From positions 1,281,501 through 1,345,500 of the forward strand of contig NZ_VKKU01000002.1 of the NCBI RefSeq assembly GCF_007280415.1: 64,000 nt of DNA. Reading direction: 5' to 3'. The position numbers were made by a program, and so were the translations under genes. Origin of the DNA: Sphingorhabdus contaminans (GTDB lineage Bacteria; Pseudomonadota; Alphaproteobacteria; Sphingomonadales; Sphingomonadaceae). The notes beneath the pieces were generated by a model. It was not told the DNA's origin and made no database searches. It worked only from the letters and a program-made list of their open reading frames with translations. Below, one piece after another: positions 1,693 through 61,631 of the stretch (positions are counted from its first letter, which is position 1; each line of letters begins with the position of its first letter).

Positions 1693-1726
1693 GCAAGTTT
1701 TCCATACCTGCGCGGCCTATGCGGAA

Positions 1727-2245
1727 ATGACCGATTTGGTATCTATACCTACGCTGAATACCGCGCGTCTCGAACTGCGGGCACCCATAGGCGAAGACTA
1801 TCCTGTGTACCGCGATTTTTTTGCCGATGCAGAAGCTTCGCATTTCTATGGCGGTCCTTTGGACGCCGACCGGGCATGGCGCGTGCTGGCCACCGACCTC
1901 GGTCATTGGGCGTTACGCGGCTATGGCCGCTGGTCCATTGTTGAAAAGGCCACAGGACGCATGGTCGGAGGCTGCGGCCTTTGGTGGCCAGAAGGCTATC
2001 CCCGGTCAGAACTCACTTGGTGGATTATCCCTGCCGCCCGCCGGCATGGATATGCTCTCGAAGCCTCCCGCGCCGCAATTTCCTTCGGCTATGACAGGCT
2101 TGGCTGGGATATGGTGGAAACCCATATGAATGATGACAACATCGCTGCGCGGAAACTGGTCGAGAAACTAGGCGGCAGCATATTCATGCGCGAAACATTT
2201 CCGGACGGACTGGCGCGGGATATCTTCCGGTTGCCACGCTCATAA
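1727..2245 (+). CDS. GNAT family N-acetyltransferase (RimJ/RimL-like)
   Basis: 172 residues with the layout of the Acetyltransf_3 branch of GNAT proteins. It has an N-terminal TARLELRAP strand, central GCGLWWPEGYP and LTWWIIP strands, a modified acetyl-CoA loop around AARRHGYALEA, and a C-terminal NIAARKLVEKLGG helix that is diagnostic for this branch. Relatives acetylate ribosomal protein N-termini or small amines. The substrate here cannot be read from sequence. It starts 34 bp after the preceding gene and may be cotranscribed with it. Confidence 0.85.
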   Translation: MTDLVSIPTLNTARLELRAPIGEDYPVYRDFFADAEASHFYGGPLDADRAWRVLATDLGHWALRGYGRWSIVEKATGRMVGGCGLWWPEGYPRSELTWWIIPAARRHGYALEASRAAISFGYDRLGWDMVETHMNDDNIAARKLVEKLGGSIFMRETFPDGLARDIFRLPRS

Positions 2246-2286
2246 TCAGAAGGGAACGGGCTGCACTTGGTTCGGCATGGCGGCGG

Positions 2287-3216
2287 CTAAATCGCCGGAA
2301 TCACCAGTCTTGGGTCAATCCGGGCGCTGTTCCATTTCATGCCCCAATGCAGATGCGGACCGCTGGCACGACCGGTCGCACCGACTTTTCCGATAATCTG
2401 CCCTTGCTTCACTACATCACCTTCGCGCACCAAAAGCTCGGAGCAGTGCAGGAAGGCGCTGTTGAGGCCCATGCCGTGGTCTATCATCAGCAAATGCCCT
2501 TCCAATGTGAAAGCCTCATCAACCGCAGCGAGCGTGACTACGCCGTCGGCTGGCGCGACGAAGGGAGTGCCTGAAGGTGCGGCTATATCCATGCCGCTAT
2601 GGTAACTGCCGGGCGTGCCATTATAGATGCGCTGCGCACCGAACAGTCCGGAGATTCGTCCTGTCACCGGGCGGATGAAATTCTGCCGCCATCCATCACT
2701 GTTTACCCGTAAAGCGCGCGCGGCATTGATCCGGGCCAGTTCCGGTCCGCGCCTCGCCTGAAATTCCTCGGTCGTTTTGGCGCCGCCGGTCGGGTTGGCA
2801 GCGACATGTTCGATCTTCCAGTTACCCGGTGCAACAGAAAGATAATGCTCCATACGCTGCCCGTCAGAAAACAGAGCGACCAGACTGGCGCTATTTTCAG
2901 CATCGCGATCAAAACCGATCAGGAAGAAGCCTTCGGCCGTTAAGGGAAGTTCGGTGCCGTTGAACAAGACCGCACGGGTACCGCTCGGTGCCCGGGCTGT
3001 CACGAGGCCTCCTTGGACTGCAGGTGCGGAAAACCAGAAGTCGGGGCGTTGGCTTTCCACCGGAATGCTCACGGAATGTGTCGGTGCAGCCTGCGCGGGA
3101 GTTGGCCCGACCGTGACCGGTGCATTACGCGCAGGGGTGGATGCTTGTGGCGGTGTGGCCGTGCATGTAGCGAGAGCCGCGAAAGCCACCGCAATAACCG
3201 AGCCGCGTCCGCGCAT
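2287..3216 (-). CDS. M23 family metallopeptidase (murein hydrolase type)
   Basis: 309 residues from the preferred ATG at 3216; an in-frame start at 3264 would overlap the upstream gene. A hydrophobic export segment (SVIAVAFAALATCTA) is followed by a Pro/Ala-rich linker, a beta-rich middle domain and a C-terminal LytM/peptidase M23 domain. Zinc ligands are intact: HSGMD gives His and Asp, and HLHWG gives the HxH pair. It probably cleaves peptidoglycan cross-links in the periplasm, or activates amidases if catalytic turnover is weak. The gene is last in a run with xseA and the DUF2093 gene. An AGGA sequence about 10 nt upstream supports the start at 3216. Confidence 0.88.
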   Translation of the reverse strand: MRGRGSVIAVAFAALATCTATPPQASTPARNAPVTVGPTPAQAAPTHSVSIPVESQRPDFWFSAPAVQGGLVTARAPSGTRAVLFNGTELPLTAEGFFLIGFDRDAENSASLVALFSDGQRMEHYLSVAPGNWKIEHVAANPTGGAKTTEEFQARRGPELARINAARALRVNSDGWRQNFIRPVTGRISGLFGAQRIYNGTPGSYHSGMDIAAPSGTPFVAPADGVVTLAAVDEAFTLEGHLLMIDHGMGLNSAFLHCSELLVREGDVVKQGQIIGKVGATGRASGPHLHWGMKWNSARIDPRLVIPAI

Positions 3217-3223
3217 CGGAGAT

Positions 3224-3421
3224 TTATCCTTTTCCGAGCGCCGCCCGTGTCGAAATTTCCGCACTGGCGTAGGGTTCCTGCTTGATCACACTCCAATAGC
3301 GTAATTCTTCCAACGGGATGGCCTGCCCAGTGACCGCGCACAGTACATGGTCCCCCGGACTCAACAGACGGAATCCATTTGCCATATAATGGAGGCGTGC
3401 GACTTTATTTTTGCTCAACAT
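3224..3421 (-). CDS. DUF2093 family small protein
   Basis: 65 residues with the compact DUF2093 pattern: a basic N-terminus, GFRLLSPGDHVLCAVTG, then IPLEELRYWSV and QEPYAS. The family is found in Alphaproteobacteria and has no known function. It contains one CAVTG cysteine that might bind a metal. An ATG at 3427 is also in frame, but the GGAAGG ribosome site abuts it directly, while the ATG at 3421 has a normal six-base spacing. The gene lies between xseA and the M23 peptidase gene in the same direction, with short gaps on both sides. Confidence 0.85.
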   Translation of the reverse strand: MLSKNKVARLHYMANGFRLLSPGDHVLCAVTGQAIPLEELRYWSVIKQEPYASAEISTRAALGKG

Positions 3422-3471
3422 CAACATCCTTCCATTATGGCGCAATGCGCATGAATGGGCAATGATGGCCT

Positions 3472-4884
3472 TTAGCCTTCAAACAAATTGCCCTGATTTG
3501 GTGCGGGACGCGGCGCTTTGGGAGTGGCGGGCCTGGGCGGATTTGCCGCACCATGTATCGTGGCTCCGACCTCTCCATCGGCAAAGCGCAGGCCGACATC
3601 ACCGGCCAGCAACGCGGCCTCGCGGCTGATAATAGTTTTGCCATGCGCGTCAGTGACCCGGGCAAAGCCGCGTTTCAACGGAGCTTCGGGATGTAAACTG
3701 CCTGCCAGCCGTGCGAGCGCATCCAGCCTTTGCTGTCCCTGATCCACTCGGCGCGCCAACAGGCGGGGGTGCAGCATCTGGGCTGGACCGGAAAAAGCTA
3801 GTTCAGCCTTTCCTACACGCGTGCGGAGCGACTGGCGCAGCCGTTCGGCCAATTCGTCGGTCCGTTGCTGGTGCGGGGCGGACAGGTCGGTCAGTTTCGG
3901 CATAAGGCGGCGCTGCGCCTCCAACCTCTCCGTCGCCCGGTCGACATGACGACGGACTGCGCCTGACATCCGCAATGCGGCCTGCCCGACGCGCTGCAGC
4001 AATTCGCTACGTACCGGTACGGCCATTTCGGCTGCGGCGGTTGGTGTCGGTGCACGGACATCCGCGGCAAAATCGCATAAGGTCGTGTCGGTTTCATGTC
4101 CCACGGCTGAAATGATCGGAATGGTGCAGCCCGCGACCGCGCGTACAACAACCTCTTCATTGAACGCCCATAAATCTTCAATCGACCCACCACCACGCGC
4201 AACGATGACGAGATCGGGCCGCGGTACAGGTCCACCGGCTTCCATGGCTGAAAATCCGTTGACGGCACGGGCAATCTGGGCGGCGGCACCTTCACCTTGG
4301 ACGAGCACTGGCCAGACCAGGACATGGCTAGGAAAGCGGTCCGCAAGGCGGTGAAGAATGTCGCGAATTACCGCGCCCGTTGGGGATGTAACGACACCAA
4401 TAGTGCGGGGCAGTGAAGGAATGGGGACTTTTTTCTGGGGTGCAAAAAGACCTTCGGCGGCAAGACGTGCCTTCAGCTTTTCGAACAGCAGCATCATTGC
4501 GCCTTCACCGGCGACTTCGAGGCTTTCGACGACAATCTGGTAATTGGACCGGCCCGCGTAGGTGGTCAGTTTGCCGGTGGCGATGACTTCCAGGCCGTCT
4601 TCGGGGGCAAAGGGCAGGCGTGCTGCACCGCCTTTCCACATCACCGCATCAAGGCGGGCATTTTCATCCTTCAGGCTGAAATAGATATGCCCGGACGCTG
4701 CGCGCTTGAAACCGGAAATCTCCCCGCGGACGCGAACATGTCCGAAGCGGTCCTCGACCGTCCGCTTGAGCGCGGATGACAATTCGGACACGCTCATGGC
4801 CTGGGCATTGTCGCCGGCGCGCTCCTCGGCTAACAGGCGCGCAGTTGGGCCGTTGGGGTCATTAAAAGGGGCGTTGTCGGACAT
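3472..4884 (-). CDS. xseA: Exodeoxyribonuclease VII large subunit
   Basis: 470 residues, the usual family length. An N-terminal OB fold ([24 protein letters not shown]) is followed by the ExoVII large-subunit domain with [37 protein letters not shown] and [29 protein letters not shown] split across the centre. It then has a coiled-coil region and a C-terminal beta segment (LKRGFARV). It is the catalytic subunit of the nuclease that degrades single-stranded DNA to oligonucleotides; xseB is not in the window. The ATG at 4884 overlaps the purD ATG on the other strand. An alternative ATG at 4899 would extend the overlap to 17 bp. Confidence 0.96.
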
Positions 4885-15069: not shown

Positions 15070-15449
15070 CGACGGCTCAGCGCCTCGACACAGGCGGCGC
15101 GGTCTACTTCGGCGCCGTCACTTCGGCGGGCATCAATATGCGTGACTATTTCGCTGCCGCCTTTTCCGTCGGGATATAGAAAGGCATCAAGCACGCAGGC
15201 TTTGCCGCTAAACTGCATCTTGCGGCCGTAGACTTCGATGACATCGAGGCGGGGTTCGCCAAACAGGCGTTTTAAAGTCGCTATGTCTTTACCCATCACT
15301 GCTTCCAGTCCTTTCTTTTCAAGGACGGGGCGACCGGGGAAAGCCGAAGCCGGGCGTTCGGCAGGTGTTTGCGGGCGAGGTGCCGGTGCCGGTGCGGACG
15401 CACAGCCGGCGACCGCAATGCTCATCAGAACAGGGAGGACAAGTTTCAC
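15066..15449 (-). CDS. Small lipoprotein of unknown function
   Basis: 127 residues with a lipoprotein signal ([12 protein letters not shown]), then a Pro-rich linker and a conserved-looking domain with [22 protein letters not shown] and a second Cys near the end. The two later cysteines may form a disulfide. GTG start overlapping the upstream EI24-family stop in a GTGA, indicating coupling. The function is not recognised. Its stop overlaps that of queG on the other strand. Confidence 0.78.
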
Positions 15450-16111
15450 AGTTTCGCGACTCCCGAATGCACCATATGAACGGCCATGGCGGTTGCCAGA
15501 ACAGGCACAAAAAGGTTGAGGACCGGCACCAGCATCCCCGCAGTTCCCAATAGTCCCAAAAGCAGGCGGGGTAGTTTGCGGATGGAACCGTGATCCTGAC
15601 CGTGGCGGGCAATCAGCATATCTTCGAGATCGCGACCCAGCAGCAGTGCGTTGACAAGCAGGAAAGCGATGGCCGTACCGATGCCGGTAAAAAGCAGCAC
15701 CACATAAACCGGAAGTGCCAGAAGATTATAGGCAATGACCCGGATAACCGAACGGATCGCCATCTTCACGCCCGTCGCAAGTCCGGGGCGCTTGCCTGTG
15801 TCGGCATGGTGCGGATAGTGGCGGTCTTCGACGGCATCGATGATGTCGTCGGCAAAGATCCAGGTCATCGCAACGGCGACGACCCGGAACAGCAACACCG
15901 CGGCTAACAAGGATAATGCCGCAGACAGCAACGCCGACCAGGTTCCGTCATCGGCCAGTTGCAGCCAATCGAAAAAGGCATCCAGCCCAAACCAGAGGCC
16001 GATACCGATCAGGACAAAGGCAGCAAGGGTAAGGGTGATGACCTTGACCAGGAGCAGAGCGACGCGTCGGTCCGTGAGGCTTTGGAACGACAATATAAGT
16101 GCTTGGATCAT
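15446..16111 (-). CDS. EI24/CysZ-like membrane protein
   Basis: 221 residues with four to six membrane helices, including VKVITLTLAAFVLIGIGLWF, LLSLLAAVLLFRVVAVAMTW and LPVYVVLLFTGIGTAIAFLLVNALLLGRDL. The last pattern plus RKLPRLLLGLLGTAGMLVPVLN is typical of the EI24 domain shared with sulfate permease CysZ. No sulfur genes are nearby, so sulfate transport is only a family-based possibility. It is cotranscribed with the following lipoprotein gene. Confidence 0.85.
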   Translation of the reverse strand: MIQALILSFQSLTDRRVALLLVKVITLTLAAFVLIGIGLWFGLDAFFDWLQLADDGTWSALLSAALSLLAAVLLFRVVAVAMTWIFADDIIDAVEDRHYPHHADTGKRPGLATGVKMAIRSVIRVIAYNLLALPVYVVLLFTGIGTAIAFLLVNALLLGRDLEDMLIARHGQDHGSIRKLPRLLLGLLGTAGMLVPVLNLFVPVLATAMAVHMVHSGVAKL

Positions 16112-16184
16112 GGATGCACTCTAAAGCGCTTGCTCCAAATGTCCAATCCCACTAGGGCGCGCCGGACCGTAAACAGGATATATT

Positions 16185-17180
16185 ATGACTGAAATTCGTT
16201 ATGACGTGCTCGCAATCGGCAATGCGATTGTAGATGTTATCGCCGATACCGATGATCGTTTCATCACCGAACAGGGCCTGACCAAAGGCAGCATGCAGTT
16301 GATCGACGAAGCGCGGGCAAAAGCGCTTTACGACCATATGGGGCCGGCACGTGAAATCAGTGGTGGTTCGGCTGCCAACACTTTGGCCGGTCTGGCGCGC
16401 TTAGGTCATAAAACCGCATTTATCGGTCAGGTGGCAAATGACCAGCTGGGCAATGTGTTCGCACATGATATCCGGGCTGGCGGCATCCATTTTGATATTC
16501 CGGCGCGTGAAGGCGCCCCGGCGACGGCCTGTTGCTATATTCTGGTGACGCCTGACGCCCAGCGTACCATGAACACCTTTCTGGGTGCGTCGCAATATCT
16601 GCCCGCGCGGCTGATCGACAAGGAACTGATCGAGAGCGCTGCAATTCTGTATCTCGAAGGCTATTTGTGGGACCCAGAAGAGCCGCGCGCCGCCATGCGG
16701 ACAGCCATCGACGTCGCACGCGCGGCGGGGCGCAAGGTCGCCCTGACGCTTTCCGACGCATTTGTCATTTCCCGGCACGGACCCGACTTCCTGGCTGAAA
16801 TGGATGCAGGACGGATCGATATCCTTTTTGCAAACGAAGTCGAAATCTGTGCGCTGCATGGCAGCGATGATTTCGAAGCATCGGTTGCGGCAATTGCGGC
16901 CAAGGTTCCGCTGCTGGTGTGCACGCGTGGCGAACATGGGGCGATCGCTGTCGAAAATGGCGTGCGGACCACAGTTGCGGCAGAGCCTGTTTCACGTCTG
17001 GTCGACACCACCGGAGCAGGAGACCTGTTCGCAGCGGGCGTCTTTGCAGGTATCGCGCAAAAGCGGCCGATGGCCGACTGCCTGACGATGGGTGCAGTGT
17101 GTGCAGCCGAGATCATCTCCCATTATGGCGCGCGGCCTGAGGCCGATATCGCCGAACTGGTGCGCAACAGGCTGGGCTAA
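16185..17180 (+). CDS. PfkB family kinase, adenosine kinase-like
   Basis: 331 residues. An N-terminal strand DVLAIGNAIVDVIA is followed by the substrate motif GGSAANTLAGLARLG and the C-terminal PfkB signature DTTGAGDLFAAG, which includes the catalytic Asp and anion hole. This subtype in Alphaproteobacteria is usually annotated as adenosine kinase, phosphorylating adenosine to AMP. A ribo- or fructokinase cannot be excluded from sequence. The gene is monocistronic, and its stop overlaps the flippase stop on the other strand by four bases. Confidence 0.9.
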   Translation: MTEIRYDVLAIGNAIVDVIADTDDRFITEQGLTKGSMQLIDEARAKALYDHMGPAREISGGSAANTLAGLARLGHKTAFIGQVANDQLGNVFAHDIRAGGIHFDIPAREGAPATACCYILVTPDAQRTMNTFLGASQYLPARLIDKELIESAAILYLEGYLWDPEEPRAAMRTAIDVARAAGRKVALTLSDAFVISRHGPDFLAEMDAGRIDILFANEVEICALHGSDDFEASVAAIAAKVPLLVCTRGEHGAIAVENGVRTTVAAEPVSRLVDTTGAGDLFAAGVFAGIAQKRPMADCLTMGAVCAAEIISHYGARPEADIAELVRNRLG

Positions 17181-30507: not shown

Positions 30508-30598
30508 GGAGACGTGGCCGAGTGGTCGAAGGCGCTCGCCTGGAAAGTGAGTATACGTCAAAAGCGTATCGAGGGTTCGAATCCCTCCGTCTCCGCCA
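30508..30598 (+). tRNA. tRNA-Ser (anticodon GGA)
   Basis: The seven-pair acceptor stem GGAGACG/CGTCTCC closes a class II tRNA with a long variable arm. The D-arm region is TGGCCGAGTGG, the anticodon loop is CTGGAAAG with anticodon GGA, the T-arm is GAGGGTTCGAATCCCTC, and CCA is encoded. It decodes UCC/UCU. It marks the boundary between the core region and the catabolic block. Confidence 0.97.
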
Positions 30599-34903: not shown

Positions 34904-34923
34904 AAAACTAACGGGTAAGTTTT
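34904..34923 (-). promoter_or_regulatory. Catabolic regulon operator 1 with adjacent -35-like box
   Basis: AAAACTAACGGGTAAGTTTT, an imperfect palindrome. On the minus strand it is preceded, three bases away, by TTGACA (34927-34932 as TGTCAA on plus). It lies between the CoA ligase (minus) and the hydratase/dehydrogenase (plus) genes. Five closely matching sites occur downstream. Confidence 0.85.
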
Positions 34924-34967: not shown

Positions 34968-37004
34968 ATGGTCGTTAGTGGAGCCGACGAAATGCAATCT
35001 GTTACTACAACGCGAGATGGAGAAGTGCTGATCCTTACGATCGATAATCCTCCGGTAAACGCCTTGAGTTGGCATGTCCGCAATGGGATCGGCGAAGAAA
35101 TCGGTAAGGCGGTGGCAGATAATAGCGTAAAGGCGATTGTCCTCATCTGCGCGGGCCGCACTTTTATAGCCGGTGCCGACATCTCAGAAATGGGCAATCC
35201 GAATATTCCCAGCGGCCTTACATTTCTGGAAGTGTTCGATACCTTCGAATATGCTGACAAGCCTATAGTAGCAGCCATTCACGGGTCGGCGCTGGGTGGT
35301 GGATTTGAACTGGCGCTAGTGTGTCACTACCGGATCGCGGTTCCTTCCGCACAACTCGGCCTACCAGAAGTCAAACTGGGCCTCATCCCCGGCGCTGGAG
35401 GAACGCAGCGCCTGCCGCGCGTCGTCGGAATTGAGCAGGCGGCAATCATGGTGTCGCTTGGCGAACCGATTTCCGCGGTCGAGGGGCATGAGCGTGGGCT
35501 GGTCGACCGGCTGGCCGAAGAGACGAGCCTCAGGGCAGATGCTATAACCTTTGCTCGCGAGTGTATTGCCATGGGGCCGCGATCGACTCGCAATTTGCCC
35601 GTTACCGGCAATCTCACCGCGATCGAGAAACTCAAGGAAGAAAACGCCCGCAAGTGGCGAGGTTTTGAAGCGCCTTATGTCGCTCTCAAGTGTGTTGAAT
35701 TTGCAGCTGGTGTGGAAGACCCCGAGGATGGTTTGCAGTTCGAGCGCGAGGAGTTTGTGCGTCTTCGCGAAGGAGCACAGACCAAGGCCCAACGGCACAT
35801 GTTCTTTGCTGAGCGACAAGCGGCCAAGGTCGATGGCTTGCCCAAGGATACTCCGCTGCGCGACATACGGCGTGTCGGGGTGGTTGGTGCAGACACCAAG
35901 GGTTGCGGCATCGCGATGAATTTCCTGCAGAAGGGAATCCCGGTCACCTTGGTCGAGCAGGCACAGGATAATCTCGACAGCGGTGTCGGACTAATCCGCA
36001 GAAATTATGAAGCTTCAGCCGCCAAAGGCCGTTTCAGTGCTGAGCAGGCCGAACAGATTTTGGACCTCCTGAGCCCGTCGCTTGCTCTCGAAGATCTTTC
36101 CGACTGCGATCTGGTGATCGAAGCCGTCTATGAGGAGATGGACGTCAAGCTGGAGGTGTTCGCCAAGCTCGACCGGATCTGCAAGCAGGGCGCGATCCTT
36201 GCGACCAATACCAGTTATCTCGACGTGAACGAAATCGCTTCGGCGACATCGCGGCCGCAGGATGTGCTGGGCATGCACTTCTTCTCGCCCGCCAACGTCA
36301 TAAAGCTGCTCGAAGTGGTGCGAGGCAACGAGACTTCGGACGGTGCGCTCGCGACCGTGATGGCCTTGGCCAAGAGGATCGGCAAGATCGCGGTGGTGGC
36401 CGGTGTTTGCGATGGCTTTATCGGCAACCGCATGTTTGCCCAGCTCCAGCAGGCAGCGCTGCAACTGTTGCTGGAAGGTGCATCGCTCGAGCAGATCGAC
36501 CGGGCTCATTTCGTCTTCGGTATGCCGATGGGTCCCTTCCGGATGAGCGATCTGGCGGGACTAGATGTGGGCTGGCACCGCGATCCTTTGCGGGTCGAAA
36601 CGATCCGCGATGCGCTTTGTGCAGCCGGTCGGCTTGGTCAGAAGAACGGGAAGGGATTCTACGATTACGACGAACGGCTCAACGGCACTCCATCGCCCGA
36701 GACCCTCGCAATCATCGAAGATTTTCGTTCACGATCAAACCTTCCCAAACGCGAAATTACCGACGAGGAGATTATCGAGCGTACGCTACATCCTATGGTC
36801 AACGAAGGGTGCCTTATCCTCGAAGAAGGCAAAGCCCAGCGCACGTCGGACATCGATGTGGTCTGGGTTCATGGCTATGGATGGCCCGCCTATCGCGGGG
36901 GCCCAATGTACTGGGGTGAACAAGTAGGGGCGGGTAGGATCGCTGCCGCGTTAGAGAAACAAGGCATCTCAATTGCCGCAAAGTTGAAGGCAATGGCTGT
37001 TTAG
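34968..37004 (+). CDS. Fused enoyl-CoA hydratase/3-hydroxyacyl-CoA dehydrogenase (FadB/peroxisomal MFE-like)
   Basis: 678 residues. The N-terminal crotonase domain has AGADISEMG for the oxyanion hole, and both acidic catalytic positions are present in GGGFELAL and LPEVKLGLIPGAGGT. The 3HCDH NAD domain starts near residue 300. Its glycine motif is GADTKGCGIA instead of the usual GxGxMGxGIA. The catalytic His is kept in GMHFFSPA. Two C-terminal 3HCDH domains follow. It catalyses hydration and oxidation in beta-oxidation. ATGs at 34968 and 34992 both have GGAG sites. Divergent from the ligase across operator 1. Confidence 0.93.
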   Translation: MVVSGADEMQSVTTTRDGEVLILTIDNPPVNALSWHVRNGIGEEIGKAVADNSVKAIVLICAGRTFIAGADISEMGNPNIPSGLTFLEVFDTFEYADKPIVAAIHGSALGGGFELALVCHYRIAVPSAQLGLPEVKLGLIPGAGGTQRLPRVVGIEQAAIMVSLGEPISAVEGHERGLVDRLAEETSLRADAITFARECIAMGPRSTRNLPVTGNLTAIEKLKEENARKWRGFEAPYVALKCVEFAAGVEDPEDGLQFEREEFVRLREGAQTKAQRHMFFAERQAAKVDGLPKDTPLRDIRRVGVVGADTKGCGIAMNFLQKGIPVTLVEQAQDNLDSGVGLIRRNYEASAAKGRFSAEQAEQILDLLSPSLALEDLSDCDLVIEAVYEEMDVKLEVFAKLDRICKQGAILATNTSYLDVNEIASATSRPQDVLGMHFFSPANVIKLLEVVRGNETSDGALATVMALAKRIGKIAVVAGVCDGFIGNRMFAQLQQAALQLLLEGASLEQIDRAHFVFGMPMGPFRMSDLAGLDVGWHRDPLRVETIRDALCAAGRLGQKNGKGFYDYDERLNGTPSPETLAIIEDFRSRSNLPKREITDEEIIERTLHPMVNEGCLILEEGKAQRTSDIDVVWVHGYGWPAYRGGPMYWGEQVGAGRIAAALEKQGISIAAKLKAMAV

Positions 37005-37677: not shown

Positions 37678-38775
37678 CTATCGATTGAATTCCTTGTGGT
37701 AGCGTGGGATGAAGTGGTTCTTGCCTTTGATCTTGCTGGTGAACCAATCTCCGACTGTCATTCCTTCCTTGCCCAGCGGGACTACGCTGACCCCAAGTTT
37801 TGGCCCCAGCGGGACTAAAATAGGCGGAATTCGCCAACCCTTGTAGGGTTGGAGACTCTCCACCCGCTGTCCCGCGGCAAGCTTTAGTAGAGCACGTTTC
37901 ATCCAAGGCACATGCTTGCCAATAGCGACGATGGTCATCCCGTCACCGGTTGCTGCAAGATCGCCAAGCACAAAGACATTGGGCAGGCGCGATGGGCGCA
38001 GCCAGGAATCGACCGATAATTGCCCGTTGGGTTCGCATCGGACGCCCGGAAGTTCGTGTGCCGGGCTGTCAGCCGCGTGGGCGCCGATTGTCGGGATGAT
38101 CAGACCGGATAGAACAGAACCGTTAGCCAGCGTGATCTGGCCAGTAAAGGGAGCACTGGTTTGCTTGAGGTTGCGCACAGGCGAATTTAAACTGACTGTC
38201 ACCCCAAGTGCATTGAAGCGTTGGGTCAGTTCCTTGTGGAGCTTTTCAGTATACATCGGAAATAGCCGCGACTGATCGCCAACAAGCGTCACTTTCTTGC
38301 CGGGAAAGGCGACCTTGATTTCGCCGGCTAGTTCCACTCCGGCCGCACCTGAGCCCACTATGACTACACTATCTGACTGGGCGATCTGTTTGGCGGTCGA
38401 GATCAGCGTATGTTTGAAAGACGGGATGTTATCGTCCTGAGGTTTGAACGGCGCAGCATAGCGCGATCCGGTGGCAACGACAATGGCATCCGCCTGGATG
38501 CGCGCGTCATCGGCGAGCGTGATACCGCCCGGATCGATTGAGACGACGCGTCCATGTACGACGCGCCCTCTATTCAGCAATCGGTCATAGGGGATTACAA
38601 TCTCGTCGAGTAGATCTGGTTCGACCACAGCACGCAATGTCGCAGGTGTCATGACGAAGGCCTCTCGGGCCTCGATTAACGTTACATCGACATGGTTATC
38701 TAGCATCCGTGCAAGACTAAAACCCGCATAGCCGCCACCTACGATAGCAACCCGAAAATCTTCTTTCGATCCCAC
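37678..38775 (-). CDS. FAD-dependent oxidoreductase, AMID/FSP1-like (type II NADH dehydrogenase fold)
   Basis: 365 residues from GTG, three bases after the FAH-family stop. FAD motif: AIVGGGYAGFSLAR; TPATLRAVVEP; ATGSRYAAPF; NAD(P) motif: VVIVGSGAAGVELAGE; FAD ligand: FVLGDLAA. This is the AMID/FSP1 branch, whose members reduce quinones with NAD(P)H. In this operon it may pass electrons from an intermediate to quinone or supply reductant to a dioxygenase. Third gene of the VOC-FAH-oxidoreductase unit. Confidence 0.87.
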   Translation of the reverse strand: MGSKEDFRVAIVGGGYAGFSLARMLDNHVDVTLIEAREAFVMTPATLRAVVEPDLLDEIVIPYDRLLNRGRVVHGRVVSIDPGGITLADDARIQADAIVVATGSRYAAPFKPQDDNIPSFKHTLISTAKQIAQSDSVVIVGSGAAGVELAGEIKVAFPGKKVTLVGDQSRLFPMYTEKLHKELTQRFNALGVTVSLNSPVRNLKQTSAPFTGQITLANGSVLSGLIIPTIGAHAADSPAHELPGVRCEPNGQLSVDSWLRPSRLPNVFVLGDLAATGDGMTIVAIGKHVPWMKRALLKLAAGQRVESLQPYKGWRIPPILVPLGPKLGVSVVPLGKEGMTVGDWFTSKIKGKNHFIPRYHKEFNR

Positions 38776-38778
38776 GTC

Positions 38779-39696
38779 TCAGGACTCCGCCACCATGGTG
38801 CCTTCGATGTACCCCAGTCCGTCGATCTCGCAGCGCACCACATCGCCGGGTTTCAGGAACTTGGGTGGCATGTTGGCGACACCTACACCCGCAGGCGTGC
38901 CGGTGAAGACAAGATCGCCTGGTTCCAAGGTCATGCCCACCGAAAGGTGCTCGATCTGAGTATCCACAGGAAAGACCATGTCGCTGGTGTTGTTATCTTG
39001 CCGCAGCTCGCCATTGACATAACAGCGCAGACCCAGTGCCTGCGGATCGCCCAACTCATCAGCAGTCACGATCCACGGACCGATTGGCGCGTGCGTGTCA
39101 AAGCTCTTGCCGAGCGACCATTGCGGGCTGGCAATCTGCCAGGTGCGTTCGGTTACCTCGTTGCCAACACAGTAGCCGAAGACAGCACCAAGCGCGTCGC
39201 CCCGAGCGATGTGCTTTCCGCCCTTGCCGATCACTGCGACAAGTTCAATCTCGTAGTCCGTGCTAGATTCGGCGATAGCAAAGATCGCTTTGATTTTGTC
39301 AGGAAAATGGCCGACGTGCTCTTCGGGAACCTTGGTTCCCTTGGTGATGATAATCGGATCATAGGGACCGTTGATGCTAGTTTGAGCCTTGGTGAAAAAG
39401 CCAGGACGACTAGGTGCGTCGCCCCCGCCAAACTTCTTTCCCTCCTCGACGTGTGAATGGTAATTGAGCGTTGCCCCGAAGATCTTGCCCGGCCGCTGTA
39501 TCGGCGCCTCAAGCTTCACCGAGGCCAGGGGTATGCCCTCCTCCGTAGTTGCCTTCGCTTCGAGACCAGGTTTAAGGCTATCCCAATCGCGGATAAGGTC
39601 TATCATGGTTCCGGGAACACCCGTGTCGATGACTGCGTCTCCAACGACGATACCCGTTCGGGTCTGTTCATTGGCGGTATAAGTGCAAAGCTTCAT
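38779..39696 (-). CDS. Fumarylacetoacetate hydrolase family protein
   Basis: 305 residues from an ATG overlapping the VOC stop (ATGA). The FAH core includes IFGATLNYHSHVEEG, metal-binding ExE in DYEIELVAVIGK and GKSFDTHAPIGPW, with FTGTPAGVGV near the end. The third metal ligand, usually Asp in NDVSARD, appears here as Glu in GNEVTERTWQ. Family members hydrolyse or decarboxylate ring-cleavage products. Its coupling to a dioxygenase-like gene suggests the step after ring opening. Confidence 0.92.
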   Translation of the reverse strand: MKLCTYTANEQTRTGIVVGDAVIDTGVPGTMIDLIRDWDSLKPGLEAKATTEEGIPLASVKLEAPIQRPGKIFGATLNYHSHVEEGKKFGGGDAPSRPGFFTKAQTSINGPYDPIIITKGTKVPEEHVGHFPDKIKAIFAIAESSTDYEIELVAVIGKGGKHIARGDALGAVFGYCVGNEVTERTWQIASPQWSLGKSFDTHAPIGPWIVTADELGDPQALGLRCYVNGELRQDNNTSDMVFPVDTQIEHLSVGMTLEPGDLVFTGTPAGVGVANMPPKFLKPGDVVRCEIDGLGYIEGTMVAES

Positions 39697-40700
39697 GTGT
39701 TTTGTCCTTCGTGCTGGCGAGAGAATCGACGTTTCGTGCGAACGAATAGCGAAAGCATTCGTTTCACGAGGCCAACAGGAATACCGCCAATCGGAATTGG
39801 TGGTCCCCATTGGGCCTTAAACAGGGTATCGATCGACTCAATCGTTGGCGGTTGATCGGCAGTGTAGACATCACCATCGGTCCAGTGTTCCAGTTCGTTG
39901 CCAAATGGATCTTTCCAATAGTCGAAAAACTGGCTGCCAAGCACGTGCCTCCCAAGGCTCCAGAACGACTTTCGCTTCTTTGATTTGAGGTAGTCGTGGC
40001 CCATCAGTAGATCGTCAACACTAGGTACCTCGAAGGCCGCGTGCAGATTGCGGCGTCCACCTGGCAGTTGAAGCAACGCCAGAGTGTGATGGTCCGTTGG
40101 CTGGTCGCCCAGATTGCAACGCAGGAACGCGCCCAGTGGTACGTCTTTGGCAGCTTCAATTTCGTTGGTGGTCAACAATCCGAAGCGGTCTTTGTACCAT
40201 TTTTCGCTCACGCGGTAATCACTGACCGCAAGCCCGGTGTGCCCAATTCGATGTGGGTGAGAAGGCGCTGGTTTTAGCCGTACTTCCCGGTTGAGCCGAG
40301 GTTTGGCGGCCGGAGTATTAAACGCTTCACCGATCAGCGGAAACGATGGCTCGTTATTCGCCTGATCGGCAACAACCTCAATGCGGTAGCCATCCGGGTC
40401 TATCAGGCGAAGAATTTTGCCTCCACCCGGCTCAGTCGAAATCTCGACCGGAGCATCTTCGTGGTCGGCAAGTCTTTCGAGATCTTCAACTGATCTGGCA
40501 AGAAATCCGACTGCAAGGAATTCGGCTTTACCGGGCTCGGTCACATGAAAGAACGGCCTGCCATCAGTGCCCTTGCCATAAAGTCGGCCATTGACCTCGA
40601 AGCATTTCATGCCGAAGTCCTCGAGAAATGAGCGCATTACGGCAAGGTCCGGCGCCGCATACCGGACATGGGCGATATCCTGGACAGTGATTATCGACAT
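39693..40700 (-). CDS. VOC superfamily protein, type I extradiol dioxygenase-like
   Basis: 335 residues from an ATG with AGGAGG seven bases upstream. Two VOC modules are present: an N-terminal one (VRYAAPDLAVMRSFLEDFG) and a C-terminal one from HRIGHTGLAVSDY. The likely iron ligands are His in RIGHTGL, His in RRNLHAAFEV and Glu in GNELEHW, the 2-His-1-carboxylate set of type I extradiol dioxygenases. It may cleave a catechol-like ring. No ring-hydroxylating oxygenase is in the window, so the catechol source is unclear. First gene of the unit behind operator 40765. Confidence 0.83.
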   Translation of the reverse strand: MSIITVQDIAHVRYAAPDLAVMRSFLEDFGMKCFEVNGRLYGKGTDGRPFFHVTEPGKAEFLAVGFLARSVEDLERLADHEDAPVEISTEPGGGKILRLIDPDGYRIEVVADQANNEPSFPLIGEAFNTPAAKPRLNREVRLKPAPSHPHRIGHTGLAVSDYRVSEKWYKDRFGLLTTNEIEAAKDVPLGAFLRCNLGDQPTDHHTLALLQLPGGRRNLHAAFEVPSVDDLLMGHDYLKSKKRKSFWSLGRHVLGSQFFDYWKDPFGNELEHWTDGDVYTADQPPTIESIDTLFKAQWGPPIPIGGIPVGLVKRMLSLFVRTKRRFSRQHEGQNT

Positions 40701-40764
40701 CGCCAAGCCTCCTAACGTCACGCACTTTTGTTGAGATGCCGTGAGTCTCAACAAAAAACAATTA

Positions 40765-40784
40765 AAAACTTACTGGTAAGTTTT
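40765..40784 (-). promoter_or_regulatory. Catabolic regulon operator 2 with adjacent -35-like box
   Basis: AAAACTTACTGGTAAGTTTT, the most symmetrical copy. TTGACA reading minus lies four bases upstream of it (40789-40794 on plus as TGTCAA). It is 65 bp before the VOC start and drives the VOC-FAH-oxidoreductase unit. Confidence 0.87.
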
Positions 40785-40881: not shown

Positions 40882-43059
40882 TCAGGGCATTGCTGCACTG
40901 CCTTCGGCGCGGGACACGGTGATCTTGATGCCGTCCAAGTGGACGACAGCCGATACTTGTTCCCAATCGCGGGGATCGGATGACGCGAGTACATTGAAGT
41001 TTGCCCCGGGCAACGAATTTGCGTGCCGCCAGCCGCCGTCATGGCCCCAGCCATGCGGGTAGCACGCCGAACCGCGGACCACTTCATAGCTCATTTCGGC
41101 TTCAATTAGGACTGAACCGGTTTTGCTGGAGACGCGCACCATGTCACCGTCTGCAATGTTGCGTGGCGCTGCATCGTCAGGGTGCATCAGCAGGGTCGGA
41201 CGATCGCCGCGGACCAGCCGCTCGACGTTATGCATCCATGTGTTGAGCGATCCTAAACTGCGTCGACCGAAGAGGAGCAGTGTTTCATCGTCATTTTTGG
41301 GATCGGACAGCAGACGCGCCAATTCCTTCGGCAACAAATCGGGCCAAAGCTGGGGACGCTTGCGTTCGTTCTGGATCCGGTTCCAGCTTTCCTGTGCATT
41401 GACCCCTGGCGCCAAGCGAATCCCGTGAGGGAACCAGTCTCGTAATTTTGCGATTGAGAGGCCATCCGGATTTTTGCCCATCTGATCCCCGTAGGGCCCG
41501 CGGCGGAGCATTTGGTCGGCGATGTCCATGAGTTCTGGCTGAGGCCTATCGGTGGTGGCAAAAGCGGAGAACAGTCGGGGTAAACCCATTCTGCCCAGAA
41601 TTTCGTTGTAGATGTCCGCTTCAAGGCGAGCCTCGCCAAGTGGCGGAATCACCTCTGGCGTAAACTGGACCCATGGGCGCGGTGCATTAGCCATGAAGGC
41701 GAGAGTTAGATCTGCGCGCTCATAGAATGTCGGCGCGGGCAGGATGTAGTCTGCTAGTTTGCCAGTTTCGTTTACGTAGAAATCAATCGACACGAGTAGG
41801 TCGAGCTTCGCAAAAGCCGCTTCGGCTGCCTCCGGGTCCGGATAGGAGTGGAGAGGGTTACCGCTGTCGACAAACAGCGCCCGAACCTGTCCCTTGCCCG
41901 GCGTTGCAATCTCCGCGGCAATGCTACCGCTTGGCATGAAACCCATCAGGCTAGGCAATCCCGAGACGCGTGACTGCGCTTCGTCATGCGCTGGCGTTTT
42001 GGTGGCTAGCGCACTGAACGGAACATCACCGATCACCCATCCGCCTGGAACACCGAAACGACCGCAGGCGATATTGAGATATTCGATAAGGAGGTTGGTC
42101 AACGTCGAAAACCGGCCTCGGCAAGTGCCAAGCCGACCATAGCAGGCACTGGTACGGGCCTTGGCAAAGCGCTCTGCAAGCTGGCGGATTGAAGCCGCAT
42201 CGATCCCGCATCGCAGGGATGCGATTTCAGGAGAAAATGGCTGCAAGGCATCGCGTAACTGCTCCCAGTCATCGGTGCGCTGTCGCAGGATTTCGGTGTT
42301 AGCTAGTCCGCCGGCGAAAATGTGATTGAGTATGGCGCACAGCAGCCAGGCATCTGAATCTGGGCGGATTGCGATGTGCTCGAAGCGCTTTGCGGTCTCG
42401 GTACGGCGCGGATCGATCACCACGACACCGCCCCGCGCATGGATCTCGTTGAGCTTGTGGAGCGCCAGCGGTTCCGTGACCATGGAGAAGTGCGAAACCA
42501 TTGGATTTGCCCCGATCATGATCAGAAAGTCGCACGACTCCAGATCAGCAAATGTGTGATGAGCTGGGCTGCCATAGACCAGTTCTTCAGCAAGGAACTG
42601 TGCCCCGGTGTCGGCATGGAGCGGCGAAAAGATCTTATCTGCACCTAGCTTTGCCAGGAACATCCGTGCGTACATGATGTGCAGCGTAGAAAATGCTGCC
42701 GGGTTGCCCAGATATGTTGCGATGGCGTCCGCGCCGTTTGCCTGAATGATCTGAATCAACCGTGCTGCGATGTCGCGCAGCGCAGTATCCCAGTCGACCG
42801 GTTCAAACTCACCAGTTACCCGATTCCTTTTAAGCGGATTGGTGACGCGGTCTTGGTCGTACATAACATCGACCATGCCGGGACCTTTGATACACAGATG
42901 ACCTTGAGAGGCAGGATGATCGCGGTCAGGGAGAATCTTGGTGATTTTGCCCTTTTCGACATTTGCCAGCAAACCGCACTGCGCCTCGCACAAACGACAA
43001 TAAGTTGGGTGCAATCCGTCTTCGCCGGGTTTCGATCGATTATTGGCGTTCCATGTCAT
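40882..43059 (-). CDS. Molybdopterin-dependent oxidoreductase (DMSO reductase/formate dehydrogenase superfamily)
   Basis: 725 residues. N-terminal [4Fe-4S] ligands are C21, C24, C28 and C56. Next come DWDTALRD, the WLLCAILNHI region and a C-terminal molydopterin dinucleotide-binding domain (LLFGRRSLGSLNTWMHN, MHPDDA, VRVSSKTGS). No twin-Arg leader is seen, so it is cytoplasmic. At the usual Mo-ligand position (around SPLHADTGAQ) no Cys or selenocysteine is evident; Asp is a candidate. It could hydroxylate, dehydrogenate or reduce a pathway intermediate. GGAGG precedes the start. It faces operator 3. Confidence 0.88.
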   Translation of the reverse strand: MTWNANNRSKPGEDGLHPTYCRLCEAQCGLLANVEKGKITKILPDRDHPASQGHLCIKGPGMVDVMYDQDRVTNPLKRNRVTGEFEPVDWDTALRDIAARLIQIIQANGADAIATYLGNPAAFSTLHIMYARMFLAKLGADKIFSPLHADTGAQFLAEELVYGSPAHHTFADLESCDFLIMIGANPMVSHFSMVTEPLALHKLNEIHARGGVVVIDPRRTETAKRFEHIAIRPDSDAWLLCAILNHIFAGGLANTEILRQRTDDWEQLRDALQPFSPEIASLRCGIDAASIRQLAERFAKARTSACYGRLGTCRGRFSTLTNLLIEYLNIACGRFGVPGGWVIGDVPFSALATKTPAHDEAQSRVSGLPSLMGFMPSGSIAAEIATPGKGQVRALFVDSGNPLHSYPDPEAAEAAFAKLDLLVSIDFYVNETGKLADYILPAPTFYERADLTLAFMANAPRPWVQFTPEVIPPLGEARLEADIYNEILGRMGLPRLFSAFATTDRPQPELMDIADQMLRRGPYGDQMGKNPDGLSIAKLRDWFPHGIRLAPGVNAQESWNRIQNERKRPQLWPDLLPKELARLLSDPKNDDETLLLFGRRSLGSLNTWMHNVERLVRGDRPTLLMHPDDAAPRNIADGDMVRVSSKTGSVLIEAEMSYEVVRGSACYPHGWGHDGGWRHANSLPGANFNVLASSDPRDWEQVSAVVHLDGIKITVSRAEGSAAMP

Positions 43060-43112: not shown

Positions 43113-43132
43113 AAAACTTACCAGTTAGTTTT
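43113..43132 (-). promoter_or_regulatory. Catabolic regulon operator 3 with adjacent -35-like box
   Basis: AAAACTTACCAGTTAGTTTT. TTGACA on the minus strand lies four bases away (43137-43142 on plus as TGTCAA). It sits between the molybdopterin gene (minus) and the CYP108-like P450 gene (plus). Confidence 0.86.
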
Positions 43133-43276
43133 AGCTTGTCAAACGTCCATTTGGGCGGTAGCCAATGTCGGAGAACTCGTGTCGGCGCTGGCGCGGGCTG
43201 AGCTGAGTTGACATCGTTGTTGCACTCGGAGGCAATGCGGTGCCTGAGATAGTTTTTCGATGAGGTTTGGAGAAAT

Positions 43277-44548
43277 ATGACGCTGCACCAGTCTTTAGCT
43301 GAAGCGATTGTCGATGGTCGGGCCTATGCGGATGGCGACAGGATCGACGAGGTGTTCCGTTGTATAAGGAAGGAAGCTCCTCTGGATGTGGCCCAGCCAG
43401 AAGGCTATGACCCCTTTTGGGCCGTAAGCCGTCACGCTGACATCAAAGAGATCGAACGTCAGCCGGATCTTTTTCACAACGCGGACCGGGCTGTTGTTGT
43501 CCAGACTACATCGAACGCTGCCAAGATCCGGCAAATGACTGGAGGGGAAGCAAACATGGTTCGTAGCGTTGTGTCAGTCGATGGAAAGGAGCACAAAGAT
43601 CTTCGCGGGATATTGTTCCCGCACCTAACTCCTCGTTCCGTTCGTCCCATGGAAGAGCAAGTACGCAAGATTGCGTCCGAGTTCGTCGACCAGATGCTCG
43701 GATTTGGTGACGAATGCGATTTCGCTAAGCAAGTCGCCTTCCTCTATCCACTACGGGTCTTGATGGCATTCATGGGAGTCCCGCCTCAGGACGAGCCGAT
43801 GATGCTTAAGCTTACTCAAGAGATATTCTCCGGAAACGATCCGGAGTTGAACCGCTCTGGAAAACAGCAGACTCCGGAGGAGGCTCTTCAGGCAACCCTT
43901 GCCAGCATCGCCGAGATGGAAAACTACTTCCTTGACGTGACCACGCGGCTACGTGAAACGCCGGACAGCGGACTGAACAGTCTTATCGCGAATGCGAAGA
44001 TTGATGGAGACTATCTGACTCGCCGACAACTGCTTGGCTATTATATAACGGCCGCCACGGCAGGCCATGATACTACCTCAAATGCAACTGCGGGAATAAT
44101 GTGGGCACTGGCAGAAAGACCTTATCTTTTCGAGCAGATAAAGCAGGATCGTACTCTCATCCCGGCGCTTGTCGATGAAGGTGTGCGCTGGGTAACACCG
44201 GTTAAACATTTCATGAGATCGGCCACCGCAGATTGCGAATTGGCTGGTCAGAAAATAACGAAGGGCGATTGGTTGATGCTATGTTACAGCTCCGCCAATC
44301 GCGACGAGTTAGTCTTCGACGATCCATTCGACTTCAGGTTGGATCGCAAAGACAACCCGCAGCTTGCATTCGGGTACGGTGTCCATGTTTGTTTGGGACA
44401 GCATTTGGCGCGGCTGGAAATGCGCGTGCTGATGGAGCAATTGTTCGATAGGCTAGCGTCTGTTGAACTTTCGGGAACACCGGCGCGGACGATATCCAAT
44501 TTTGTCTGCGGACCAAAGCGGGTGCCGATCCGCTACAAGACGAATTGA
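43277..44548 (+). CDS. Cytochrome P450, CYP108 (P450terp)-like
   Basis: 423 residues. I-helix: TAATAGHDTTSNA; ExxR: DEGVRWVTPVKHFMRSA; heme loop: FGYGVHVCLGQHLARLEM with the Cys near residue 372. The ending SVELSGTP...NFVCGPKRVPIRY, together with EGYDPFW and HADIKEIERQPDLF near the start, resembles remembered P450terp (CYP108A1), the alpha-terpineol hydroxylase. A terpenoid, alkyl-aromatic or other hydrophobic ring substrate is therefore plausible. First gene of the P450-rubredoxin-hydratase-acyl-CoA dehydrogenase unit, divergent from the molybdenum enzyme. Confidence 0.9.
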   Translation: MTLHQSLAEAIVDGRAYADGDRIDEVFRCIRKEAPLDVAQPEGYDPFWAVSRHADIKEIERQPDLFHNADRAVVVQTTSNAAKIRQMTGGEANMVRSVVSVDGKEHKDLRGILFPHLTPRSVRPMEEQVRKIASEFVDQMLGFGDECDFAKQVAFLYPLRVLMAFMGVPPQDEPMMLKLTQEIFSGNDPELNRSGKQQTPEEALQATLASIAEMENYFLDVTTRLRETPDSGLNSLIANAKIDGDYLTRRQLLGYYITAATAGHDTTSNATAGIMWALAERPYLFEQIKQDRTLIPALVDEGVRWVTPVKHFMRSATADCELAGQKITKGDWLMLCYSSANRDELVFDDPFDFRLDRKDNPQLAFGYGVHVCLGQHLARLEMRVLMEQLFDRLASVELSGTPARTISNFVCGPKRVPIRYKTN

Positions 44549-53382: not shown

Positions 53383-53402
53383 AAAACTTACGGGTTAGTT
53401 TT
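53383..53402 (+). promoter_or_regulatory. Catabolic regulon operator 4 with adjacent -35-like box
   Basis: AAAACTTACGGGTTAGTTTT. TTGACA (53374-53379) lies three bases upstream on the plus strand, pointing at the MaoC-like gene. The -10 position with normal spacing falls inside the right arm. Confidence 0.86.
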
Positions 53403-55541: not shown

Positions 55542-55561
55542 AAAACTAACCAGTAAGTTTC
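55542..55561 (+). promoter_or_regulatory. Catabolic regulon operator 5 with adjacent -35-like box
   Basis: AAAACTAACCAGTAAGTTTC, one mismatch at the last base. TTGACT (55531-55536) lies five bases upstream on the plus strand. It precedes the CoA-transferase gene by about 70 bp. Confidence 0.83.
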
Positions 55562-56808: not shown

Positions 56809-56868
56809 CGATTGTTGATGAAATCAAGGACGCTCAATGAGCGAACCAATGGAGGAATGGTATTAGTC

Positions 56869-57192
56869 ATGACGACAATCGTTTTTTTCGAGCCTGACGG
56901 AACCCGGCGCGAAGTAGAGGCCAATCCTGGCGAAAGCCTCATGGAAGTTGCCGTGCGCCATGGGGTCGAGGGGGTTGATGCCGATTGTGGCGGGGTGTGC
57001 GCCTGCGCGACATGTCATGGTCACATTGATCCCGCGTTCTTCGGCCGCTTGCTGGCAATGAACGATACCGAAGATGCGATGCTCGAACTAGTTGAAGACC
57101 AGAGAGCGGCCAATTCGCGGCTGCTTTGTCAGATTCAAGTTGGGCCCGAACTGGATGGGATCGTCATTAAGCTACCTGGCGTTCGGCGCTGA
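56869..57192 (+). CDS. [2Fe-2S] ferredoxin, adrenodoxin/terpredoxin type
   Basis: 107 residues. Cluster ligands C40, C46, C49 and C87 in the C-x5-C-x2-C plus distant Cys arrangement of vertebrate-type ferredoxins. ESLMEVAVRHGVEGV and the PG/LPGV ends fit P450 redox partners such as terpredoxin and putidaredoxin. ATG at 56869 is 12 bases after GGAGGA; an ATG at 56857 is too close to the ribosome site. It probably feeds the P450s at 43277 and 50454. Confidence 0.93.
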   Translation: MTTIVFFEPDGTRREVEANPGESLMEVAVRHGVEGVDADCGGVCACATCHGHIDPAFFGRLLAMNDTEDAMLELVEDQRAANSRLLCQIQVGPELDGIVIKLPGVRR

Positions 57193-61611: not shown

Positions 61612-61631
61612 AAAACTAACCAGTAAGTTTT
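61612..61631 (-). promoter_or_regulatory. Catabolic regulon operator 6 with adjacent -35-like box
   Basis: AAAACTAACCAGTAAGTTTT. TTGACA on the minus strand is three bases away (61635-61640 on plus as TGTCAA). It lies between the flavoprotein-thiolase unit (minus) and the second acyl-CoA dehydrogenase pair (plus). Confidence 0.87.

Follow-up and report, generated by a model that had tools for sequence, protein, structure and literature searches.

The 64,000-nucleotide stretch analysed here (the window: Sphingorhabdus contaminans, RefSeq assembly GCF_007280415.1, contig NZ_VKKU01000002.1, positions 1,281,501 to 1,345,500 of the forward strand) encodes a molybdopterin oxidoreductase, which we denote MO. 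We found that its gene carries the same operator as a surrounding cluster of cytochrome P450 and coenzyme A (CoA) genes, and from these sites the bacterium appears to control MO jointly with an oxygen-using breakdown pathway. The explanation that we favour, at slightly better than an even chance, is that MO is a soluble molybdenum (Mo) enzyme, liganded by Asp150 and belonging to a local TetR regulon, that would move an oxygen atom on the carbon of a pathway intermediate. Its standing derives from the operator, the fold and the ligand evidence. A sequence-only reading of the same DNA had taken MO for a molybdoenzyme that is out of the ordinary for an aerobic pathway of P450 and CoA enzymes. This is supported both by the operator membership of MO and by the similar company that recurs around its relatives, and taken as a whole that reading is partly borne out. 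The features that carry the argument are as follows.

40882..43059, (-): MO, a bis-molybdopterin guanine dinucleotide (bis-MGD)-type molybdopterin oxidoreductase of 725 aa (open reading frame with ATG start; Pfam)
42892..42999, (-): codons of the [4Fe-4S] cysteines Cys21, 24, 28 and 56 of MO (alignment)
42610..42612, (-): Asp150 codon of MO; the residue, invariant in the family, is a candidate Mo ligand (alignments)
43115..43130, no strand: operator AACTTACCAGTTAGTT of MO, 55 bp ahead of its start codon (exact match)
43137..43142, (-): TTGACA -35-like box adjoining this operator and directed at MO (sequence)

A shared operator places MO in a local TetR regulon

The palindrome AACTNACNNGTNAGTT has six exact sites in the window and none in 100 shuffles. 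Across the whole genome (3.29 Mb) we found eight exact sites, all of them inside 35 kb (C2:1316406-1351251), while the reversed pattern of the operator, searched genome-wide as a control, gave no site at all. All eight operators are intergenic and lie upstream of cluster genes, with a -35-like box a few bases before each palindrome (exact TTGACA at six, a one-base variant at two). The earlier claim that MO is under a shared operator thus stands, with an exact site 55 bp from its start codon. In the 25 bases inspected beside that site there is no TTGACA box directed toward the P450 gene that begins at 43277. The other sites, and the regulatory gene that accompanies them, are listed below; L006 is a locus of the same genome.

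34906..34921, no strand: operator between an acyl-CoA ligase gene (-) and the FadB-like gene (+) (exact match)
40767..40782, no strand: operator preceding the extradiol dioxygenase-like gene (exact match)
53385..53400, no strand: operator preceding a MaoC-like gene (exact match)
55544..55559, no strand: operator preceding a CoA-transferase III gene (exact match)
61614..61629, no strand: operator flanked by the NMO-like gene (-) and an acyl-CoA dehydrogenase gene (+) (exact match)
L006 1435-2037, strand not available: TetR gene with its own upstream operator (PF00440, PF17932)
L006 4750-8960, strand not available: sulfatase and TonB receptor genes with an operator in between (exact match)

The TetR protein encoded behind one of these operators is the obvious, if putative, regulator of the regulon, and we infer that it acts as a repressor. 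A comparable arrangement comes from another sphingomonad, whose edc estradiol cluster includes a P450 and a ring-cleaving dioxygenase and whose TetR protein EdcR is described, in passages of PMC7793797 and PMC8700777, as having a palindrome that overlaps the degradation promoters. The edc operator differs in sequence from that of the MO regulon, and the main text of PMC7793797 does not contain the word stem 'molybd'.

A paralogue of MO in the same genome, which we denote MO2 (L006 16831-19071) together with the sister group of the MO clade to which it belongs, lies ~20 kb beyond MO near acyl-CoA dehydrogenase and thiolase genes, and the 900 bases scanned from L006 19001 onward hold no operator with three or fewer mismatches. 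Among 12 loci of the MO clade, the window's operator had just three matches, each with two mismatches. A similar palindrome is found between the MO and TonB genes in two of the relatives' loci, L083 (11262-11277) and L084 (9496-9513); in L084 it reads TTTAAATG-N2-CATTTAAA, and it is perhaps those relatives' own operator.

MO is a predicted soluble, single-subunit enzyme of the DMSO reductase superfamily

Pfam matched Molybdop_Fe4S4, Molybdopterin and Molydop_binding to MO in that order, each above its cut-off, and the AlphaFold2 model (pLDDT 87, pTM 0.90) has the superfamily fold, which agrees with the earlier assignment to the dimethyl sulfoxide (DMSO) reductase superfamily. Structural superposition gave Z values of 25.8-33.4 over 497-674 residues among the best 50 rows. 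Arr, Nap, formate dehydrogenase (FDH), Psr and acetylene hydratase fell at Z 30.6-33.4, arsenite oxidases at Z ~28, PcrA at Z 27.7 and ethylbenzene dehydrogenase at Z 26.9.

In the alignment, Cys21, Cys24, Cys28, Cys56 and Lys58 of MO share columns with the [4Fe-4S] cysteines and Lys44 of the formate dehydrogenase FDH-H, so that the [4Fe-4S] site is intact, as had been claimed. The N-terminus MTWNANNRSKPGEDG, read by eye without a leader predictor, contains neither a twin-arginine motif nor a hydrophobic stretch; on the same by-eye reading, the absence of a twin-arginine leader noted before is upheld. No gene for an Fe-S beta or gamma subunit was seen among the neighbouring open reading frames that were scanned. 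Altogether, MO is predicted to be a soluble, single-subunit enzyme with a bis-MGD cofactor and one [4Fe-4S] cluster.

The fold also bears on whether MO could be a non-redox hydratase of the acetylene hydratase type, acting on an unsaturated intermediate. Acetylene hydratase was the first Foldseek hit of the model by E-value, but FDH-H came second with a nearly equal E-value, FDH, Nap and Psr follow closely, and in superposition acetylene hydratase reached Z 31.6 where the top value was 33.4. The cluster already holds several enoyl-CoA hydratases, and we give a hydratase function a very slight probability.

Asp150 is a candidate molybdenum ligand

The sequence-only reading had found no obvious Mo ligand in MO. 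In so far as this meant Cys or selenocysteine (Sec), it was right, since the alignment shows neither at the usual ligand position; the place of the ligand is nonetheless probably taken by an invariant residue, Asp150. This aspartate is conserved in 62/62 members of the MO family, a count that excludes L005 (an FDH, with Cys), L008 (Glu) and L042 (a fragment, with a gap), L001-L004, L044 and L045 having been removed from the family alignment beforehand as duplicates or pieces. In the ligand column a true FDH has Cys, and a third, solitary paralogue in the genome of the window (L008, from ~6122; C2:1161118) has Glu.

We examined the register of Asp150 against enzymes whose ligands we take to be TorA Ser191, DmsA Ser205, NapA Cys179 and NarG Asp222, and against FdhF, whose codon 140 was verified as TGA (Sec). 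In a balanced alignment of 56 sequences, with Sec140 of FdhF entered as Cys, the Asp150 column coincides with FdhF 140, with the Cys of 7/7 FDH rows and of 5/5 Nap rows (including NapA Cys179), and with YdeP Cys182, TorA Ser191 and DmsA Ser205. MAFFT alignments of the full family with eight references put Asp150 on FdhF 140, NapA Cys179, YdeP Cys182 and the FDH Cys in 4/4 modes. FdhF 140 and YdeP Cys182 were also met, together with NarG Asp223, in a single-profile run with the full family and in MAFFT runs with single references, and 17/36 profile-profile runs against deep profiles of FDH and Nap again set Asp150 on FdhF 140.

A model of MO residues 136-346 alone gave a further estimate (pLDDT 86.9 overall, with 60 for the first ten residues and 76 for the next ten). 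The structural aligner matched fragment residues 4-5 to FdhF 131-132 (rows 7z0t, 1aa6 and 1fdi), which carries Asp150, fragment residue 15, to about FdhF 142, two residues from the ligand at 140 and eight away from 134, the upstream alternative; as this superposition reports range ends only, the position of Asp150 may be shifted by a few residues.

Several alignments weigh against this register. NarG Asp223 is one column away from Asp150 in the 56-sequence alignment, and NarG is likewise one off in the full-family MAFFT runs, which also leave TorA and DmsA off their Ser in 4/4 modes. The full-family single profile misses the NapA Cys and the TorA Ser, the profile of the MO clade alone misses the ligand in 5/5 references, and the MAFFT runs with single references miss it for NapA, TorA, DmsA and the genome's own FDH. 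With the MO clade alone, MAFFT shifts Asp150 six residues upstream relative to FDH and Nap in 4/4 modes; the same offset from the FDH ligand appears in 19/36 profile-profile runs, and 12/12 such runs against Nap alone choose the upstream register.

Structure prediction and superfamily alignment, which had been proposed at the outset as the route to the Mo ligand, yield Asp150 as the candidate, with the profile-profile registers split 17:19. On the strength of the balanced 56-sequence alignment and the superposition of the domain model, we consider that Asp150 probably holds the Mo of MO. The alternative is a Mo without any ligand from the protein, as is presumably the case in arsenite oxidase, with Asp150 being structural or a proton relay; this would still be compatible with a role in the pathway. 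The ambiguity of the register in sequence comparisons and the good superposition of arsenite oxidases (Z ~28) speak for such an arrangement, but the invariance of Asp150 (62/62), the balanced alignment and the domain superposition speak against it, and we assign it a fairly small probability. If Asp150 is the ligand, the ligand-based classification of these enzymes would gain a lineage, one with an invariant Asp on a scaffold like that of FDH and Nap, and there would be a single residue to test.

MO is not a housekeeping formate or nitrate enzyme

The earlier reading had named clear orthology to a housekeeping nitrate or formate enzyme as the finding that would overturn it. No such orthology was found, as scores fell far below the curated cut-offs and FDH residues are missing. 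None of 25 NCBIfam models (the best 25 of 27 matched) reached its cut-off with MO. The top model was Fdh-alpha TIGR01591 (243 bits; cut-off 666); the others include NasC (158; 1100), the type II, Asp-liganded TIGR03479 (136; 985), the BisC family TIGR00509 (130; 1017) and NapA (71; 931). Among the models listed, MO2 is likewise under every cut-off. A search with TIGR03479 for Asp-type members gave no match at E <= 1e-150 across 200 genomes.

One could suppose that MO is an FDH or a nitrate reductase that has been displaced into this cluster, as its top NCBIfam model and its best PDB sequence matches are formate dehydrogenases. Yet His141, Arg333 and Gln335 of FDH, the first two of which we take to be catalytic, correspond to T151, V346 and F348 of MO in the 56-sequence alignment and are present in 0/17 rows of the MO clade, the Fdh-alpha and NasC scores miss their cut-offs widely, and a true FDH is encoded elsewhere in the genome (917 bits, over the cut-off). 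We accordingly rejected MO as a housekeeping FDH or nitrate enzyme, and regard displacement of such an enzyme as extremely improbable.

MO nevertheless shares with FDH alpha (FdhF type; type I of the DMSO reductase family) its domain order, its [4Fe-4S] motif, Lys58 and its overall fold, and differs in having Asp where that enzyme has Sec or Cys, in lacking the three FDH residues and in having no adjoining partner subunit. With the type II enzymes (NarG, perchlorate reductase, ethylbenzene dehydrogenase) it would share an Asp ligand, predicted in the case of MO, but MO misses their model widely, is shorter and has no beta-subunit gene among the neighbours scanned. The ligand-based types of the DMSO reductase family (Cys/Sec, Asp, Ser) are set out in passages of PMC6650914, where an Asp ligand is also proposed for haloarchaeal DmsA/TorA. 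Those enzymes give a precedent outside the classical Asp-type group, although, likened to MO by description only, they are discussed there as respiratory reductases, unlike MO.

Cluster genes around MO

The cluster comprises two P450s, acyl-CoA ligases, pairs of acyl-CoA dehydrogenases (ACADs), enoyl-CoA hydratases, FadB, a CoA-transferase and thiolases, together with an NMO-like flavoprotein, a ferredoxin, a ferredoxin reductase, an extradiol dioxygenase-like protein and a fumarylacetoacetate (FAA) hydrolase. Those discussed below are the following.

34968..37004, (+): FadB-like enoyl-CoA hydratase/3-hydroxyacyl-CoA dehydrogenase (homology)
37678..38775, (-): Pyr_redox_2 FAD/NAD(P) oxidoreductase (FADox), a possible electron partner (Pfam)
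38779..39810, (-): FAA-hydrolase family protein (homology)
39693..40754, (-): protein resembling extradiol (catechol) dioxygenases, downstream of MO (homology)
43277..44548, (+): cytochrome P450 adjoining MO (PDB sequence search)
56812..57192, (+): [2Fe-2S] ferredoxin (Fer2), directly downstream of the CoA-transferase gene (Pfam)

The closest PDB entries to the adjoining P450 are P450terp (1cpt, 389 bits) and 3tkt (370 bits), presumably CYP108 enzymes that act on terpenes or aromatics. This likeness is no more than a hint that the substrate is a terpenoid or an aromatic compound, and NCBIfam and PDB searches gave nothing decisive on substrate identity. A sulfatase and a TonB receptor flank one operator, and the substrate may enter as a sulfate ester. 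A tRNA-Ser(gga) gene (window 30508-30598) lies close to the left edge of the cluster and is a possible integration point.

Acyl-CoA or P450 genes tend to recur around MO relatives

Relatives of the MO clade were retrieved with the MO sequence alone, and inspection of their loci reveals recurring company. An ACAD pair accompanies the MO relative in L009-L011 (L010 adds flavin monooxygenase-like and HpcH/HpaI aldolase genes by Pfam) and in L085, which also has an acyl-CoA ligase and FadB, a 46% homologue of the window's FadB-like protein adjoining the MO relative. L086 has an ACAD pair together with an NMO-like gene at a distance of 9-14 kb. A Rieske oxygenase and an acyl-CoA ligase are found in L068, homologues of P450, Fer2 and acyl-CoA ligase in L069, and a TonB receptor with a P450 44% identical to the window's in L070, L083 and L084. 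In L069 (8886-10016 and 10016-12136) the MO gene runs at its end into the beginning of a Sulfotransfer_3 gene; the window's regulon has a sulfatase.

We counted loci with homologues of the window's ACAD, acyl-CoA synthetase (ACS), enoyl-CoA hydratase (ECH)/FadB, CaiB and P450 within 8 kb, gene classes that were fixed after a first table of 16 MO-clade and 16 MO2 loci had been seen; those 16 MO2 loci were chosen for full flanks, with the genome's own MO2 and others excluded. Among loci with full flanks, such acyl-CoA or P450 homologues occur at 9/11 of the MO clade and 2/16 of MO2; at any flank length the figures are 12/16 and 10/50, most of the 50 MO2 loci having just ~1.5 kb per side. Fisher's exact test on 12/16 against 2/16 gave p 0.001, which is merely indicative given unequal flanks and related loci. 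P450 homologues alone were found at 4/16 MO-clade loci and 0/16 MO2 loci (p 0.10), and at 0/50 MO2 loci at any flank length. As many loci are closely related and the counts are not independent, these figures are tendencies, and it is as a tendency that the MO clade lies near acyl-CoA or P450 genes.

Telling against the reading that we favour, ten of the 50 MO2 loci are also near acyl-CoA genes, among them the genome's own MO2 (ACAD, thiolase) and four family members beside an acyl-CoA ligase (L047, L048, L050 and L064). Nor did the surroundings of MO reveal a conserved electron partner. FADox is not supported as such a partner, as it was never a region's best match at MO relatives (E 1e-15 or 1e-6), a search in which weaker or overlapped matches would be hidden. 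The extradiol dioxygenase and FAA hydrolase were rejected as partners of MO, since homologues of neither were found within 8 kb in any of 16 loci.

These data bear on two further alternatives. In the main rival, MO is a cytosolic, BisC-like repair or detoxification reductase (for S-oxides, N-oxides or the like) that removes over-oxidised by-products and stands outside the carbon route. A single subunit with no leader seen and no dedicated partner would suit this function, as would the 14/16 full-flank MO2 loci without acyl-CoA or P450 homologues, which fit a general-purpose enzyme. However, the ligand column of MO has Asp where TorA and DmsA have Ser, and the BisC-family score is 130 bits against a cut-off of 1017, so we judge general oxide repair unlikely, if still of some weight. 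Alternatively, MO could be a passenger, sharing the regulation of the cluster but having no part in its pathway. Its clade is rare and patchy (3/396 genomes of the order at E <= 1e-115, own genome counted) and its nearest neighbours vary among organisms; against this, MO has its own operator and promoter box, and its relatives tend toward oxidative or acyl-CoA genes. We give the passenger explanation a slight probability.

Proposed role of MO

Returning to the reading that we favour, TetR would repress at the palindrome beside the -35 box, MO being one gene of a ~35-kb local regulon, and would be released when the growth substrate or a product of it, perhaps a CoA ester, arrives. MO may then move an oxygen atom on the carbon of an intermediate, with water as donor (hydroxylation) or as product (dehydroxylation), while a ferredoxin or flavoprotein could deliver electrons to its [4Fe-4S] cluster or accept them from it. 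The safest statement is that MO is a soluble Mo enzyme that would exchange electrons with a ferredoxin or flavoprotein and act on a pathway intermediate. That it performs oxygen-atom chemistry on that intermediate is more tentative, at somewhat less than an even chance, and we divide this chance about evenly between the two directions. Type II members with organic substrates, such as ethylbenzene dehydrogenase, hydroxylate C-H bonds with water, and it is for this reason that hydroxylation by an Asp-type enzyme is favoured. Oxygen removal is just as attractive because the P450s of the same regulon, being oxygenases, cannot do it; by the same token they can already hydroxylate, and a Mo hydroxylase beside them may be redundant, which counts against the first direction. 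Sequence gives no preference between the two directions, nor among the reactions suggested in the earlier reading, namely water-derived hydroxylation, dehydrogenation and reduction.

More specifically, the Asp-liganded soluble lineage could be a water-dependent C-H hydroxylase (or the reverse) of aerobes that takes terpenoid- or steroid-like substrates, as acids or as CoA esters, and shares the ferredoxin pool of the P450s. We attach a small probability to this idea; if it were true, electrons from the Mo step could reach the P450 step through the shared pool.

Oxygen-on-carbon Mo enzymes of this superfamily are known mainly from anaerobes. A Mo enzyme tightly co-regulated with an oxygenase-rich pathway would mean that water-based oxygen chemistry, or the removal of oxygen, has a place in aerobes too, where oxygenases are of no use. 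By description, MO resembles the catechol dehydroxylases and acetylene hydratase, which are DMSO reductase family enzymes acting on organic substrates; the catechol dehydroxylases treated in passages of PMC7028382 are, unlike MO, from gut anaerobes, and some are complexes exported by twin-arginine translocation. AtcABC and similar Mo enzymes, likened to MO in the same way, add water-derived oxygen to steroid-like carbon, but the pathways to which passages of PMC8399759 assign them are anaerobic, unlike the aerobic setting of MO.

Lineage and spread of the MO family

We constructed a FastTree phylogeny of the 56 sequences, with NarG as the root and only type II (Asp) member. The MO clade was monophyletic (17/17; support 0.996), as were MO with MO2 (39/39; 0.988) and both with MO3 (40/40; 0.991), a group separate from FDH, Nap and YdeP. 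MO2 alone (0.55) and FDH (0.29) were weakly supported.

The MO clade is rare and patchy, whereas the wider MO and MO2 family is common in the window's taxonomic family. With the own genome counted each time, relatives at E <= 1e-115 were found in 3/199 genomes of that family, 3/396 of the order and 4/385 of the class, and the wider family (E <= 1e-60) in 44/199 genomes of the taxonomic family. We found no description of the lineage in titles and abstract openings of mostly open papers, and it may be described elsewhere. M. tuberculosis Rv0197 is called an uncharacterised oxidoreductase in a passage of PMC2936551.

The conjugative plasmid pNIN3 of Sphingobium sp. JS3065 (L071) carries molybdopterin oxidoreductases at 1486-4241 and 15202-17142, one of which adjoins an NADPH-dependent FMN reductase. 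In the MO tree, L013, labelled Bifidobacterium breve, groups with Svornostia and Solirubrobacteraceae, and L020, labelled Klebsiella pneumoniae, sits near Williamsia and Ornithinibacter; on this single-gene evidence, the labels of these two metagenome-assembled genomes may be wrong.

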